Assembly (NCBI RefSeq): GCF_011742875.1
Contig: NZ_JAAQTL010000001.1
Location: forward strand, 2,976,001 to 3,040,000
From: Luteibacter yeojuensis
GTDB lineage: Bacteria > Pseudomonadota > Gammaproteobacteria > Xanthomonadales > Rhodanobacteraceae
Length of the DNA: 64,000 nt
Direction: 5' to 3'
Shown piece after piece: positions 50,660-63,678 of the stretch. The notes under the pieces were generated by a model. It did not search any database. It was not told the origin of the DNA and saw nothing but the letters and a program-made list of their open reading frames with translations. Each line of letters begins with the position of its first letter. The stretch's first letter is position 1. The position numbers and the translations under genes are program-made.

Positions 50660-51946
50660 TCAGCGGACCTCGACGAAGACATCGTCGGTGAGATTCGAAT
50701 CGTCCGGCACGAGGTTCCGGGCATTCGAGCGGAACGCCACGACGCCTCCGTCGGCGGACACCGCCGGCTGGAAGCAGTCCCCATCGAGGTCGCCGCCGTC
50801 CCTGGGCACCGAGACGCGACCGATCCGCTGATGCGGAATGTCCCACCGGTAGATGTTCCGCCTGCCATCGGTGGCGGCGCCGTCCAGGTTGGTGGCCGCC
50901 GAGAGGAAGACCACCACGTTGCCGTCCGCGGATATCCGCGGCTGGCCGCTCCAGTCATTGGCGATGTGCGATCCCGACGGACCGGCGAGGGACAGGGTAT
51001 TCGCACGCAGGTCCCTTATGTAGACGCGTTGCAGGCCGCCACCCGCGCCATCGACAAGGTTGGAGGCCGAGGAGCTGAAAACCAGTCGCGCACCGTCGCC
51101 GGAAAGCCACGGTTCGATGCTCCCCCCATGGGCTTCCTCGCCGTGCGAGCCCACGCTGGCACGCAGCATCGTTCCCTTTTCCACGTCGCGCACGAAGATG
51201 TCGTCGGCATGGTTGCCGTCGAGGGCCACCAGGTTGCTGGCCGATGAGCTGAAGGCGACGAATCGTCCATCGCCGGAGATCGCGGGCTGGAGGCTGGGGC
51301 CGTTGGCCGCCCGACCGTCCAGGCCGGTACTGATGCAGGTCGTGGCCGACCGGGGAATGTCGCGAAGGTAAATGTTGGCCTGGCCCTCCCGGCAGCCAGG
51401 CGCAAGGGCCGAGAACGACATGAAGGCGACCCGCGAACCGTCCGCCGATGCGACGGGATTGGCGCTGTCGAGCCCACCGGCGCGGCCGTCGGCTGCGATG
51501 CTCACCATCTCGACGGCGCCCGATGCGATGTCCTTGCGGAACACCTGCTTGTGCCCGAAGGTCCGCCCGGCCACGAGGTTCGTGGCGTTCGAGGAAAAAA
51601 CCAGGAAGCGGCCGTCTCCGGAAAACCCGGGATCGACGCTCGCCGCGTTCGCTCGGGCGCCGGTGGGCGTGGCACTGGCCAGGCGGGTCGTATGCGCCAC
51701 GGGATCGCGCAGGTAGATGCTCATGCCGGGCACCGTGACACCGGCGGCAAGATTGGACGCCATCGAGATGAACGCGACTTTCGTACCGTCCCCCGGCAGC
51801 TCCGGGCGAACGGAGAAAAGGTCGCCTTGCTGCCCGGTGGTGCTGACGCTGGCGCGCTCGAGATGCACTGGCTGGCCGGCCACCACGGCGGAGGCGCCGG
51901 CGAGCGTAAGAAATACTGACAGGACGTGCGTCGCGGGATTCTTCAT
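50660..51946 (-). CDS. secreted PD40 (TolB-like) beta-propeller protein
   Basis: The 428-residue protein has a signal peptide ending about 'GASAVVAG' and seven or eight PD40/WD40-like blades, each of the form 'SGDGRFVAFSSSASNLV...DIFVRDV', with regular repeats such as 'FSGDGRFLVFSSNATNLV' and 'SADGNVVVFLSAATNLDG'. It is periplasmic or secreted. The start overlaps the C39 exporter stop by ATGA (51943-51946), so it is made together with the exporter. A scaffold or binding role during export is possible; its function is not known. Confidence 0.85.
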   Translation of the reverse strand: MKNPATHVLSVFLTLAGASAVVAGQPVHLERASVSTTGQQGDLFSVRPELPGDGTKVAFISMASNLAAGVTVPGMSIYLRDPVAHTTRLASATPTGARANAASVDPGFSGDGRFLVFSSNATNLVAGRTFGHKQVFRKDIASGAVEMVSIAADGRAGGLDSANPVASADGSRVAFMSFSALAPGCREGQANIYLRDIPRSATTCISTGLDGRAANGPSLQPAISGDGRFVAFSSSASNLVALDGNHADDIFVRDVEKGTMLRASVGSHGEEAHGGSIEPWLSGDGARLVFSSSASNLVDGAGGGLQRVYIRDLRANTLSLAGPSGSHIANDWSGQPRISADGNVVVFLSAATNLDGAATDGRRNIYRWDIPHQRIGRVSVPRDGGDLDGDCFQPAVSADGGVVAFRSNARNLVPDDSNLTDDVFVEVR

Positions 51947-54018
51947 GCGCTCAATTCCATGGGTTCCCTCAATGTCATGTCCAGGATCTGCGTGGCGTCC
52001 TGGACAACCTGGCTCCGGTGGGCCGCGTGCACGATGGTCATGCGCAAGGCGCGCAGGTTATCGAGTACACGCGCCTCGGTTTGCGAGTCGAGGTTGGCCG
52101 TGCCTTCGTCCATGAACAGCAGGACGGGTCGACGATAGACCGCGCGGGCAATGATGATCCTTTGCACCTGACCGGCCGACAGCGTCACGCCCAGTTCGCC
52201 GACCAGCGATTCATACCCCAAAGGCAGTGCCTCGATCTCCTCGGCCACGCAGGCGATGCCGCAGGCCCAGGCCACCCTCGCATCGTCGACGACGACGGAT
52301 CCCAGGGCGACATTCTCGCGGATCGAGCCGGAAAAGAGTCGGTCTCCCTGCATCACCGCGGCAATACCGTTCAGCCAGGCAGCGCGGGATACCCCGGCCA
52401 TGGCGGTGGATCCGCGAAGCACGGTCCCCGTCGTCGGCAGGTGCAGGCGAAGCAGCGTCTTTAGAAGCGTGGATTTCCCGCAGCCGGAAGGTCCGACCAC
52501 GGCAAGGCGTTCTCCCCGTGCAAGACGGAAATCGAGGTTCTCGAACAGGACCGGCTCACCCGCGTAGGCGAAGGCCAGCCCTCGTGCTTCCAGCACGGGT
52601 TCGTCGTCCGGCGCCGGATCCGGCTCTCCGGACGGCACGACCTCCTCGGGATAGCGAAGGATGTCGGCAAGTCGTTCGAGATGAATGCCCAGCACGCGTA
52701 CCTTGAAACCGACCTCGACGAGGTTCACGGCGCTCACGGAGAAGAGTCGCTTGTAGGTCAGGAACGCCACGACCATGCCTATGGTCAGGTCGCCGTGCAG
52801 CACGGCGGTGAAGGCCAGCAGCCCCGACACGATCGTCTCGACCCCCGAGAACCCGTCACGAGCGTGCATGTACCTGGCGCGCCACGACTTGATGGCAAGA
52901 TCGCCGTCGAGATCGCGCGTCAGCAGGCGGAACCACCCGTCCGCGCGCGTCTCCTCGGCTTGCGCCAGCTTCACCGCCTGCATGCGCTGCACCGTTTCGA
53001 GCACATGGGCGCGCTGGGAGACCTTGTGGAAGATCTGGTCCTCGTTAGCCAGGCGAAAGCGGGAGAACGTGGCGAAGCGATAGCAGAGATAGGCCGCGAC
53101 GCCGGCGACGACGCTGCATGTCAGCAAGGATCCGTACGCCAGGAGGATAGCGAGACCAACCAGGACCATAAGCGCGTCGGTGGCAATGGCGACGGCGTCT
53201 TCCGAGAGGATGGCCCGCACCTCGTCCATGGCGTCGAATTTCCCGAGCAGGTCCGCCGTGTTCCGTGTCTCGAAGAATGTCATGGGAAGGCGCATCAACC
53301 GCGTAAGCAACGAGGCATACAACTGCAGCGTGAGACGGCGGCTGAGCACCAGTGCGATAACGTTGCGCAAGGACCGGAGCGCCCATTCCAGGACCACCAG
53401 CAGCGAGAAGAATCCTCCCGCCAGCCATAGGACGTGCATGTCGTGACCGGGCAGGAGCCTGTCGATGGCCACCTGGAAGAAATACGGGCTGGCCAGCGCC
53501 AGGCCCTGGCAGACGAGCGACAGCACCAGCAGCGACGCCAGACTCGACCACAGCTTCCCCAGGCTCGGCACCAGCTCGCCAAGACGCACCCGGCGATGGT
53601 CGTCGGATGGAACGAATCCCACGGCGGGCGCCATCTCCACCGCGATTCCCGTGAGGTGCCGTCCGATGTCTGCCGTGGGTACGGTCACGACACCCCGGCC
53701 AGGGTCGTGGACGACCACGCCCTTGCGGCCTACTGCTCGAATGACGACGAAGTGCGACATGTCCCAATGCGCTATCGCCGGTAGCCTCAGCCGCGCCAAC
53801 GTTTCCGGTTCGACGCTGACGACCCGTGCATCGAGCCTGGCCAACCTGGCCATGCCCAACAGGTCGCCAAGGCTCGCCCCGCGGTTCGAGATGCCCGTAC
53901 GGTGGCGGAATGTCGTCAGGTCCGTCCGGTACCCGTGATACCAGGCGATCATCACGACGCAGGCAAGCGCGCACTCCGCATTCTCGCTCTGGTGAACGAT
54001 CGGGAGGCGACGTCTCAT
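51943..54018 (-). CDS. peptidase C39-containing ABC exporter (PCAT-type)
   Basis: This 691-residue transporter has an N-terminal C39 peptidase: Cys16 in QSENAECALA, His89 in 'HWDMSHFVVI' and Asp105 in 'VVHDPGRG' form the catalytic triad. An ABC membrane domain ('GLALASPYFFQVAIDRLLPG', 'RLPMTFFETRNTADLLGKFD') and an ATPase follow, with Walker A GPSGCGKST, signature LSAGQ and 'LLFMDEGTANLD' as Walker B. Such proteins cut double-glycine leaders and export the core peptide. The start at 54018 is fixed by an ATGA overlap with the small one-TM gene. It overlaps the PD40 gene at the other end. It is the expected exporter of the peptide at 56714-56905. Confidence 0.96.
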   Translation of the reverse strand: MRRRLPIVHQSENAECALACVVMIAWYHGYRTDLTTFRHRTGISNRGASLGDLLGMARLARLDARVVSVEPETLARLRLPAIAHWDMSHFVVIRAVGRKGVVVHDPGRGVVTVPTADIGRHLTGIAVEMAPAVGFVPSDDHRRVRLGELVPSLGKLWSSLASLLVLSLVCQGLALASPYFFQVAIDRLLPGHDMHVLWLAGGFFSLLVVLEWALRSLRNVIALVLSRRLTLQLYASLLTRLMRLPMTFFETRNTADLLGKFDAMDEVRAILSEDAVAIATDALMVLVGLAILLAYGSLLTCSVVAGVAAYLCYRFATFSRFRLANEDQIFHKVSQRAHVLETVQRMQAVKLAQAEETRADGWFRLLTRDLDGDLAIKSWRARYMHARDGFSGVETIVSGLLAFTAVLHGDLTIGMVVAFLTYKRLFSVSAVNLVEVGFKVRVLGIHLERLADILRYPEEVVPSGEPDPAPDDEPVLEARGLAFAYAGEPVLFENLDFRLARGERLAVVGPSGCGKSTLLKTLLRLHLPTTGTVLRGSTAMAGVSRAAWLNGIAAVMQGDRLFSGSIRENVALGSVVVDDARVAWACGIACVAEEIEALPLGYESLVGELGVTLSAGQVQRIIIARAVYRRPVLLFMDEGTANLDSQTEARVLDNLRALRMTIVHAAHRSQVVQDATQILDMTLREPMELSA

Positions 54019-63187: not shown

Positions 63188-63678
63188 AGGAAGGCGCGCA
63201 CGACGACGTAGTCGTGGCCGGTTTCGACGCGGTACGCGGCCAATTCGCTCGGCACGATTGCCGCGTGGCCCCTTTCGACAAGGCATGATGCTGCGATGTG
63301 ACCGGGTATGGCCTCGACGAAAACCCTCATGTCGCCCTTGTCCGCGACGAGGATCTTTACCGGCCCGACGTGGCGCTGGTCTTCCGGAAGCCCGAAGAAG
63401 TCGTCCCGTGCGAGCGCCGTCCTTGCATCGTGGGGGATCCGTTGAACGGAAACGATCGGCCCCAGGATTTCGATGGCACCGCTGTCGTTGATGCTGGAGC
63501 GGACGCGGTGAACCGTGTCGCGAGGCATGATCGTTGCGTCCGACATGGATTCGGAGACGCGATCGCTCGCACAGTGCGCCAGCTGCTCCGCCAATCCTTC
63601 GGGAAACGTCAGCAGGCGCACTGCGCCATTGGATTTACCCGCCTGCGTATGCGCACTGATCGGCTCGTCCCGTTGCAT
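63184..63678 (-). CDS. unknown 164-residue protein, first gene of the peptide locus
   Basis: The protein is not recognised. It has a charged N-terminus ('MQRDEPISAHTQAGKSNGAV'), a helix around 'FPEGLAEQLAHCASDRVSES', and a beta-rich second half ('GPIVSVQRIPHDARTALARD' to 'YVVVRAFL') that could be a cupin-like or RRE-like small domain, but no motif proves this. It has no signal peptide. It overlaps the JmjC gene by GTGA. An ATG at 63678 lies about 20 bases after the predicted transcription start. A role as peptide-binding or recognition subunit for the oxygenase is possible. Confidence 0.8.
   Translation of the reverse strand: MQRDEPISAHTQAGKSNGAVRLLTFPEGLAEQLAHCASDRVSESMSDATIMPRDTVHRVRSSINDSGAIEILGPIVSVQRIPHDARTALARDDFFGLPEDQRHVGPVKILVADKGDMRVFVEAIPGHIAASCLVERGHAAIVPSELAAYRVETGHDYVVVRAFL

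Follow-up and report, generated by a model that had tools for sequence, protein, structure and literature searches.

What does a packed operon of 12 genes in Luteibacter yeojuensis make, and how would its product leave the cell? The operon lies in a stretch of 64,000 nucleotides (contig NZ_JAAQTL010000001.1, positions 2,976,001 to 3,040,000), here called the window, and runs on the minus strand from position 63678 to 50660 (Table 1). The initial annotation of the window had read it as a locus for a ribosomally synthesized and post-translationally modified peptide (RiPP), with a radical SAM/SPASM enzyme, two oxygenases, a DsbA-like oxidase and two export routes. Our domain calls support this content, with the functions predicted. 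We conclude that the locus is a real and rare RiPP operon and, judged from its sequence and by analogy, probably a variant of the triceptide/ChlB kind, whose section for periplasmic finishing and export would be unusual.

The scheme that we favour is as follows. A cyclophane would be formed in the core of the precursor peptide and the core would be hydroxylated; a C39 exporter would then cut the peptide and release it into the periplasm, where a DsbA-like protein would form a disulfide, and a MacAB-like pump would complete the export. To this scheme, taken as a whole, we give slightly better than an even chance.

The precursor peptide and its invariant core

The precursor gene (56905-56714) encodes MSIIDKLKSRLKDSTGEPLESISQPMLDRISERVAGG/QVPVWCKASWGSGCDTIQQSVARPTA, where the slash marks the predicted cut. 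No family was matched in the NCBIfam scan. A homologue search against 5.8 billion proteins, clustered at 90 percent, returned three candidates, and all three were precursor homologues (P0001-P0003) with 87, 62 and 60 percent identity, one of them from a Rhodanobacter metagenome-assembled genome. Residues 41-52, the 12-residue segment VWCKASWGSGCD, are invariant in all four precursor sequences. Outside this segment, 25 of the 51 positions are invariant, against 12 of 12 within it (Fisher p = 7e-4); 24 of these positions are among residues 1-40, and only 1 of 11 is in the C-terminal tail. With three homologues and an invariant core, the conservation of the precursor exceeds chance. An invariant core followed by a variable tail is the pattern expected if the product is under constraint and the tail is discarded.

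The core contains two aromatic-x-x motifs, W42-C-K44 and W47-G-S49, both invariant in the four sequences, and exactly two cysteines, C43 and C51. XncB, OscB and MscB follow an i to i+2 rule for the three-residue cyclophane, according to the available part of the source (PMC11002830). We propose cross-links in the W-x-K and W-x-S units because this rule fits them.

Enzymes predicted to modify the core

The radical SAM protein matched PF04055 with 65 bits and has the CxxxCxxC cluster motif (CNIACTYC). Its best three NCBIfam families are XyeB, YhhB and FxsB, all of which are cyclophane maturases. The match to XyeB (TIGR04496) reached 277.3 bits, which is below the equivalog cut-off of 450 bits. 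The closest solved structure is the radical SAM domain of ChlB (9gm3, E 1.6e-41). Other families gave 84 bits (PapB, thioether type, cut-off 340) and 87 bits (DarE, cut-off 650). This XyeB/ChlB-like enzyme would likely cross-link the core tryptophans, W42 to K44 and perhaps also W47 to S49.

The HExxH protein passed the cut-off of TIGR04267 (79.7 bits against 40), and its predicted fold matches those of ChlB-HExxH and SjiH; by family cut-off and predicted fold, it is classed as an aKG-HExxH beta-hydroxylase. The JmjC protein matched PF08007 with 73.9 bits against a cut-off of 22. When it was aligned to NO66, H143-x-D145 and H206 were matched, and we take these three residues to be the metal ligands. 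Homologues of this protein were found in 8 of 149 related genomes at E 1e-8, the best match other than itself being 30% over part of the protein. The two proteins are likely to be 2-oxoglutarate oxygenases and are predicted to hydroxylate the core.

The order and the sites of these steps are predicted by analogy. In ChlB, beta-hydroxylation requires a preinstalled cyclophane, as given in the part of PMC12636437 at hand, and by analogy the cyclophane would be formed first here. The ChlB-type enzyme acts on Asp and His, so that our guess for the most likely target of the HExxH protein is the invariant Asp52; since BipG hydroxylates ornithine, our guess for that of the JmjC protein is Lys44.

Periplasmic finishing and export

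The C39 exporter matched TIGR03796 with 390 bits, under the cut-off. In its alignment to PCAT1 (4ry2, E 1e-69), Cys16 was matched, as were the His in HFVVI and the Asp in DPG, and these are presumably the catalytic residues. The exporter is predicted to cleave after Gly-Gly and to release the peptide into the periplasm.

The gene directly before that of the exporter encodes a protein of only 85 residues with one transmembrane helix (residues 32-50). In all five comparator loci (L060, L061, L062, L069 and L070), the gene in this position encodes a full-length adaptor of 406-434 residues. In two further loci, both from one genome of the same genus (G017), the product is again short, with 133 residues (L017) and 164 residues (L020), and each has one transmembrane helix. 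Thus, of the triceptide feature taken from the Xenorhabdus locus L069, a C39 exporter with a full-length adaptor, the exporter is present in our operon and the full-length adaptor is not found in its place. The 85-residue protein has an adaptor-like start motif, FRKEALDHRR, comparable with LFRKEAVDF in a Bradyrhizobium adaptor. We compared the three short proteins with the adaptors of Janthinobacterium, Bradyrhizobium and Rhodobacter, in this order, and counted how many of 500 shuffles reached the score. For the 85-residue protein, the counts were 34, 10 and 145 with the first 60 residues and 17, 0 and 38 with the part before the transmembrane helix. The corresponding counts were 1, 0, 4 and 2, 0, 91 for the protein of L017 (contig C21), and 0, 84, 10 and 1, 7, 141 for that of L020 (contig C14). 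The likeness to adaptors is mixed to good in the two G017 proteins. We infer that the 85-residue protein, which has no room for the remainder of an adaptor, is a truncated adaptor stub.

The DsbA-like protein matched PF01323 with 54.2 bits against a cut-off of 25.6. Its CxxC motif was aligned to that of DsbA (3h93, E 5e-19), and it has a hydrophobic segment at residues 2-20. It would likely close a C43-C51 disulfide in the periplasm. The calculated mass of the predicted 26-residue core is 2774.33 Da in linear form, 2768.28 Da with two rings and the disulfide, and 2800.27 Da if two hydroxyls are added to these. No DsbA hit was found at L017, L018 or L020, whose candidate cores have no Cys (tblastn with one query, which a distant DsbA could escape). 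Alternatively, the cysteines might be thioether-linked or bind a metal instead of being paired, and the DsbA-like protein might be a reductase or a chaperone. Cys43 stands inside the W-C-K motif, where the ring could set it beside the indole, and the direction of a DsbA, oxidase or reductase, is not readable from sequence. However, the three best families of the maturase and its closest solved structure make C-C cyclophanes, and PapB-like thioether maturases scored far lower, so we regard this alternative as distinctly improbable.

The MacA-like adaptor matched MacA in the PDB and, in NCBIfam, DarC with 45.9 bits (cut-off 450). The ABC ATPase scored 222.5 bits with MacB, 221.2 with DarD and 209.4 with LolD, all under cut-off. 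The ADOP permease contains MacB_PCD in two stretches together with FtsX; it matched MacB in the PDB and TIGR03434 with 275.7 bits, again under cut-off. These three genes overlap each other in the operon, which thus has the adaptor, the ATPase and the MacB_PCD/FtsX permease of a MacAB-type pump. The operon itself has no channel gene; an OEP gene lies at 45911-47515, and 31 OEP matches were found genome-wide. Downstream of the operon (45911-49959, minus strand) are genes for a TolC-type OEP channel and for two paired MacB/FtsX-type permeases, separated from the operon by an AHSA1-domain gene, and this group could supply the channel.

MacB-type pumps draw cargo from the periplasm and are known for efflux, and the disulfide of enterotoxin STII is formed in the periplasm before its export by MacAB-TolC, as described in the part of PMC8277102 that was available. 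Because the adaptor of the exporter looks truncated and MacB-type pumps take periplasmic cargo, we take the two transporters to act one after the other: the peptide would stop in the periplasm and then likely be exported by the MacAB-like pump through a TolC-type channel. The two export routes that had been annotated are therefore real as two transporter sets but are better read as one relay of two stages than as separate routes.

MacB-type permeases are found in or beside all three loci with a stub, that is, our operon, L017 and L020, while none was detected within 6-7 kb of L069 and L070, two cyclophane-type loci with full adaptors. Since these three loci, which come from two genomes of one genus, carry both putative adaptor stubs and MacB-type permeases, the relay may extend across a lineage. 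In this extended form, the product would be a two-compartment peptide, cross-linked and hydroxylated in the cytoplasm, with a C39 exporter whose adaptor was lost, a disulfide from a dedicated DsbA that passes through the W-C-K ring, and a MacAB of its own, and the relay would have replaced one-step type 1 export across a lineage of peptides. This extension is tentative, and we hold it more doubtful than probable.

Several observations weigh against the finishing and export section as we read it. The adaptor likeness of the 85-residue protein is modest, and this protein has no adaptor family match in NCBIfam or Pfam; among the three stubs, none has such a match in Pfam, and two of the three have none in NCBIfam. 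The FtsX family found beside L017 and L020 is common, with members in all 23 genomes of the genus, and neither a pump ATPase nor MacA was found near these two loci. Three DsbA-family proteins are encoded elsewhere in the same genome, and the Paracoccus locus L070 gave no DsbA hit (tblastn, one query) despite two Cys in its candidate precursor; the link between DsbA and the cysteines is accordingly suggestive and weak. Finally, the C39 exporter could work directly with the operon's own MacA-like adaptor.

This last point leads to the most serious alternative, one-step export, in which the C39 exporter and the MacA-like adaptor form an ordinary type 1 system and the ABC/ADOP pump gives self-protection from the periplasm. 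The operon does encode a full-length adaptor (412 residues), the role of MacB-type pumps in efflux is known (from the same partial source, PMC8277102), and no other immunity gene was recognised. On the other hand, the gene of this adaptor overlaps that of the ATPase and its product resembles MacA; its N-terminus compared with the three stubs was no better than shuffles (450, 164 and 235 of 500 reached the score); and the C39 gene already has its own short partner gene. We therefore consider one-step export unlikely, though worth keeping in view, and retain the two-stage relay.

If the favoured scheme is true, the product would be a radical SAM cyclophane peptide that also bears a disulfide from a dedicated oxidase, a combination not found in the literature searched, in which subscription papers and the primary XyeB/ChlB papers were covered to a limited extent. 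It would also provide a compact and testable case in which a peptide natural product passes the two membranes of a Gram-negative cell in separate steps. Peptides with a locked conformation are of interest as antibiotics, darobactin being an example.

Gene order and other features of the operon

The genes, their order and their motifs were observed directly. In the order of transcription, the junctions are -4, -1, -4, -1, +12, +75, +70, -4, -4, -4 and -4 bases. At nine of the 11 junctions, the genes overlap or lie at most 12 bases apart, and the two wide gaps (+75 and +70) border the precursor gene on either side. The packing of 12 same-strand genes that had been claimed is thus confirmed by the coordinates of the open reading frames, and the domain assignments (JmjC_2, HlyD_3, ABC, MacB_PCD/FtsX, DSBA, radical SAM, aKG-HExxH, C39-type exporter and PD40) also held. 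The interval given for the locus, 51943-63678, holds genes as claimed but is too short, since the twelfth gene, encoding the PD40 protein (51946-50660), falls outside it.

Table 1. Features of the operon in the window.
Feature	Position	Strand	Basis
Orphan 164-residue protein, first operon gene	63184..63678	-	Pfam and NCBIfam: no match
JmjC (PF08007) oxygenase, NO66/MINA-like, likely peptide hydroxylase	61973..63187	-	Pfam, NO66 alignment
MacA-like periplasmic adaptor (HlyD_3), 412 residues	60735..61973	-	Pfam, PDB MacA
ABC ATPase, MacB/DarD/LolD type	60061..60738	-	NCBIfam, all scores under cut-off
ADOP-family duplicated MacB/FtsX-type permease	57641..60061	-	Pfam, NCBIfam, PDB MacB
DsbA-like thiol oxidoreductase, C63-N-Y-C66, signal-like N-terminal segment	56981..57628	-	PF01323, DsbA alignment
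Precursor peptide of 63 residues with Gly-Gly leader and predicted core QVPVWCKASWGSGCDTIQQSVARPTA	56714..56905	-	Open reading frame, homologues
GC hairpin of 10 pairs between precursor and radical SAM genes	56683..56706	-	Folding vs shuffles
Radical SAM/SPASM peptide maturase, XyeB/FxsB/ChlB-like	55405..56643	-	Pfam, NCBIfam, PDB ChlB
Predicted peptide beta-hydroxylase, aKG-HExxH type	54269..55408	-	TIGR04267, predicted fold
Protein of 85 residues, putative N-terminal stub of a type 1 secretion adaptor	54015..54272	-	FRKEALDHRR motif, one transmembrane helix
C39-peptidase ABC exporter (PCAT)	51943..54018	-	NCBIfam, PCAT1 alignment
TolB-like PD40 beta-propeller, signal-like N-terminus	50660..51946	-	PF07676

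The hairpin between the precursor and radical SAM genes belongs to a 97-base stretch that folds at z -3.09, and none of 200 shuffles was equally stable. The terminator scan reported this hairpin on the plus strand only. At the equivalent position, L017 and L020 gave folds of -68 kcal/mol (154 bases) and -29 kcal/mol (75 bases), values without shuffle control. The hairpin is likely an mRNA stabiliser or attenuator, which would favour the mRNA of the precursor over that of the enzymes.

The JmjC gene starts at a GTG (63187); the extension up to the ATG at 63286 appeared noncoding, with -0.65 bits per codon vs 0.25 to 0.44 in nine reference genes. The orphan gene overlaps the JmjC gene by 4 bases. 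A protein search with its product gave the protein itself alone (59 candidates), a genome scan found it in 1 of 149 genomes, its own, and a single-sequence structure model had a pLDDT of 31 with no usable fold. That this open reading frame is not a gene was considered and rejected, as its codon usage matches that of the other operon genes. At the other end, the PD40 gene overlaps the C39 exporter gene by 4 bases, and its product matched PF07676 with 66.1 bits (cut-off 20.9) and TolB with 38.5 bits, under cut-off, and has a hydrophobic segment at residues 5-23.

Distribution, relatives and genomic context

The DNA pattern of the core, with at most one mismatch, was found only in the genome of origin among 398 genomes of the order. 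At E 1e-3, the HExxH protein had matches in 4 of the 149 relatives (its own genome, G001 with a weak match, G017 and G098). The HExxH alignment, used at E 1e-6 and with 8 candidates scored per listed genome, had matches in 2 of 233 genomes of the family. The radical SAM protein was found in 9 of 149 genomes at E 1e-20. Two scans of genome contigs, with the HExxH protein and with the HExxH alignment, gave no confirmed relative. Among plasmid records, the precursor had no match, the HExxH protein one distant match and the radical SAM protein nine at E 1e-40. The system is rare.

Such rarity, in the order for the core pattern and in the family for the HExxH alignment, might be expected of a decaying or silent cluster without product. 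However, all reading frames of the operon are open, the catalytic motifs are intact, and the core is constant in relatives that differ elsewhere, which makes a dead cluster extremely improbable.

The precursor homologue P0001 and the HExxH homologue P0004 both have a longest contig of 19,019 bases, and P0003 and P0006 both have one of 31,219 bases and 21 contigs each; the longest contigs of P0002 and P0005 differ in size. These equal sizes suggest that the precursor and HExxH genes are neighbours in two of the three relatives. The expectation that the gene set keeps together in other genomes would be borne out to this extent for these two genes; the orphan gene matched only itself.

Upstream of the operon are a LysR gene (63808 and beyond; L021 3808-4728) and a divergent SDR gene. 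Counting the genome of origin, LysR had matches in 6 of the 23 genomes of this genus at E 1e-100, and in the five others the SDR gene adjoins it as well. Nucleotide homology to those genomes ends at the end of LysR (about 63813-63826), and the operon start sits at this synteny break. The downstream flank genes were found in none of the 12-kb stretches beside LysR, and no clean empty site was obtained. Elsewhere in the window, an open frame of up to 1692 residues (37592-42670, minus strand) has many short repeats; these presumably resemble those of trimeric autotransporter adhesins.

Related loci were also observed in other genomes. L017 (7000-15400; G017:C21, same genus) contains an FtsX pair, a candidate precursor with the core GYSQWSASHNK, a radical SAM protein (40%), an HExxH protein (33%) and a C39 exporter. 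L020 (9249-17769; G017:C14) contains a candidate precursor with W-V-K, a radical SAM protein and a C39 exporter, together with an FtsX pair, a 2OG-FeII oxygenase and a DUF6817 protein. In L018 (10418-14151; G098:C9), two tandem short peptides ending in LLYIRF are followed by an aKG-HExxH gene (91 bits, over cut-off), and the locus also encodes a radical SAM protein and another protein that matches peptide arginases weakly, far under cut-off. An unannotated cyclophane-type locus on a plasmid of Paracoccus denitrificans (L070, 5696-7275) has a candidate precursor ending in GGQVCFGRSEFLRGDGHSKTTTTGECK, a radical SAM protein (37%), a C39 exporter and a full adaptor.

Comparison with known systems

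The operon resembles the triceptide systems (XyeA/XyeB of Xenorhabdus, XncB, OscB and MscB) in its radical SAM/SPASM protein, which is closest to XyeB, in the aromatic-x-x motifs and in the C39 exporter. It differs from them in the score of this protein (277 of 450 bits), in a precursor without NCBIfam match and in an adaptor reduced to a putative stub. Moreover, a JmjC protein, an HExxH protein, DsbA, a MacAB-like pump and a propeller were neither annotated nor detected by tblastn in the Xenorhabdus locus, whereas the operon has all of them. ChlB, a fusion of radical SAM and aKG-HExxH, has the radical SAM domain that comes closest among solved structures, and its HExxH fold is a close match too. 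Here the two are separate genes, accompanied by JmjC, DsbA and export genes, and the core is another one.

Darobactin (DarABCDE), known to us from part of the source (PMC9055067), shares the W-x-K unit and likewise has an ABC export trio that includes an adaptor, but the cluster as described there has no C39 exporter, oxygenase or DsbA, and its core and maturase differ. A daropeptide-like product, with W-x-K closed as in darobactin, possibly through an ether bridge, and export by a DarBCD-like pump, would agree with the W-x-K spacing in common with Trp51-Lys53 of DarA (same partial source, PMC9055067) and with the scores of the ATPase to DarD (221 bits) and of the adaptor to DarC (46 bits), both under cut-off. 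Neither the WNWx(K/R)xF core nor a DarE maturase was found, however: the core is VWCKASWGSGCD, without WNWxKxF and with tryptophans five positions apart, not two, and DarE scored 87 bits of 650 vs 277 for XyeB. Such a product is very unlikely here, and a triceptide/ChlB-like cyclophane is preferred.

Enterotoxin STII is a parallel only: it shares a periplasmic disulfide followed by a MacB-type pump, but it enters the periplasm through Sec instead of a C39 exporter (PMC8277102, in the part available).

The enzyme set had been regarded as new, which did not hold for its radical SAM, JmjC and HExxH part. As far as the accessible part of PMC12707348 describes it, the biphenomycin (bip) cluster already combines a radical SAM enzyme with JmjC (BipG) and aKG-HExxH (BipH) hydroxylases, as our operon does. 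That cluster also has, in the same account, a B12-dependent radical SAM enzyme, an MNIO, an arginase, a TldD-type protease and an MFS transporter of its own; MNIO, B12-binding, arginase and TldD-type families were not called in any of the 12 operon proteins, each scanned by Pfam, NCBIfam or both. The enzyme trio itself thus has a precedent, and the unusual parts of the operon are its core, the DsbA-like protein, the putative adaptor stub and the proposed relay.

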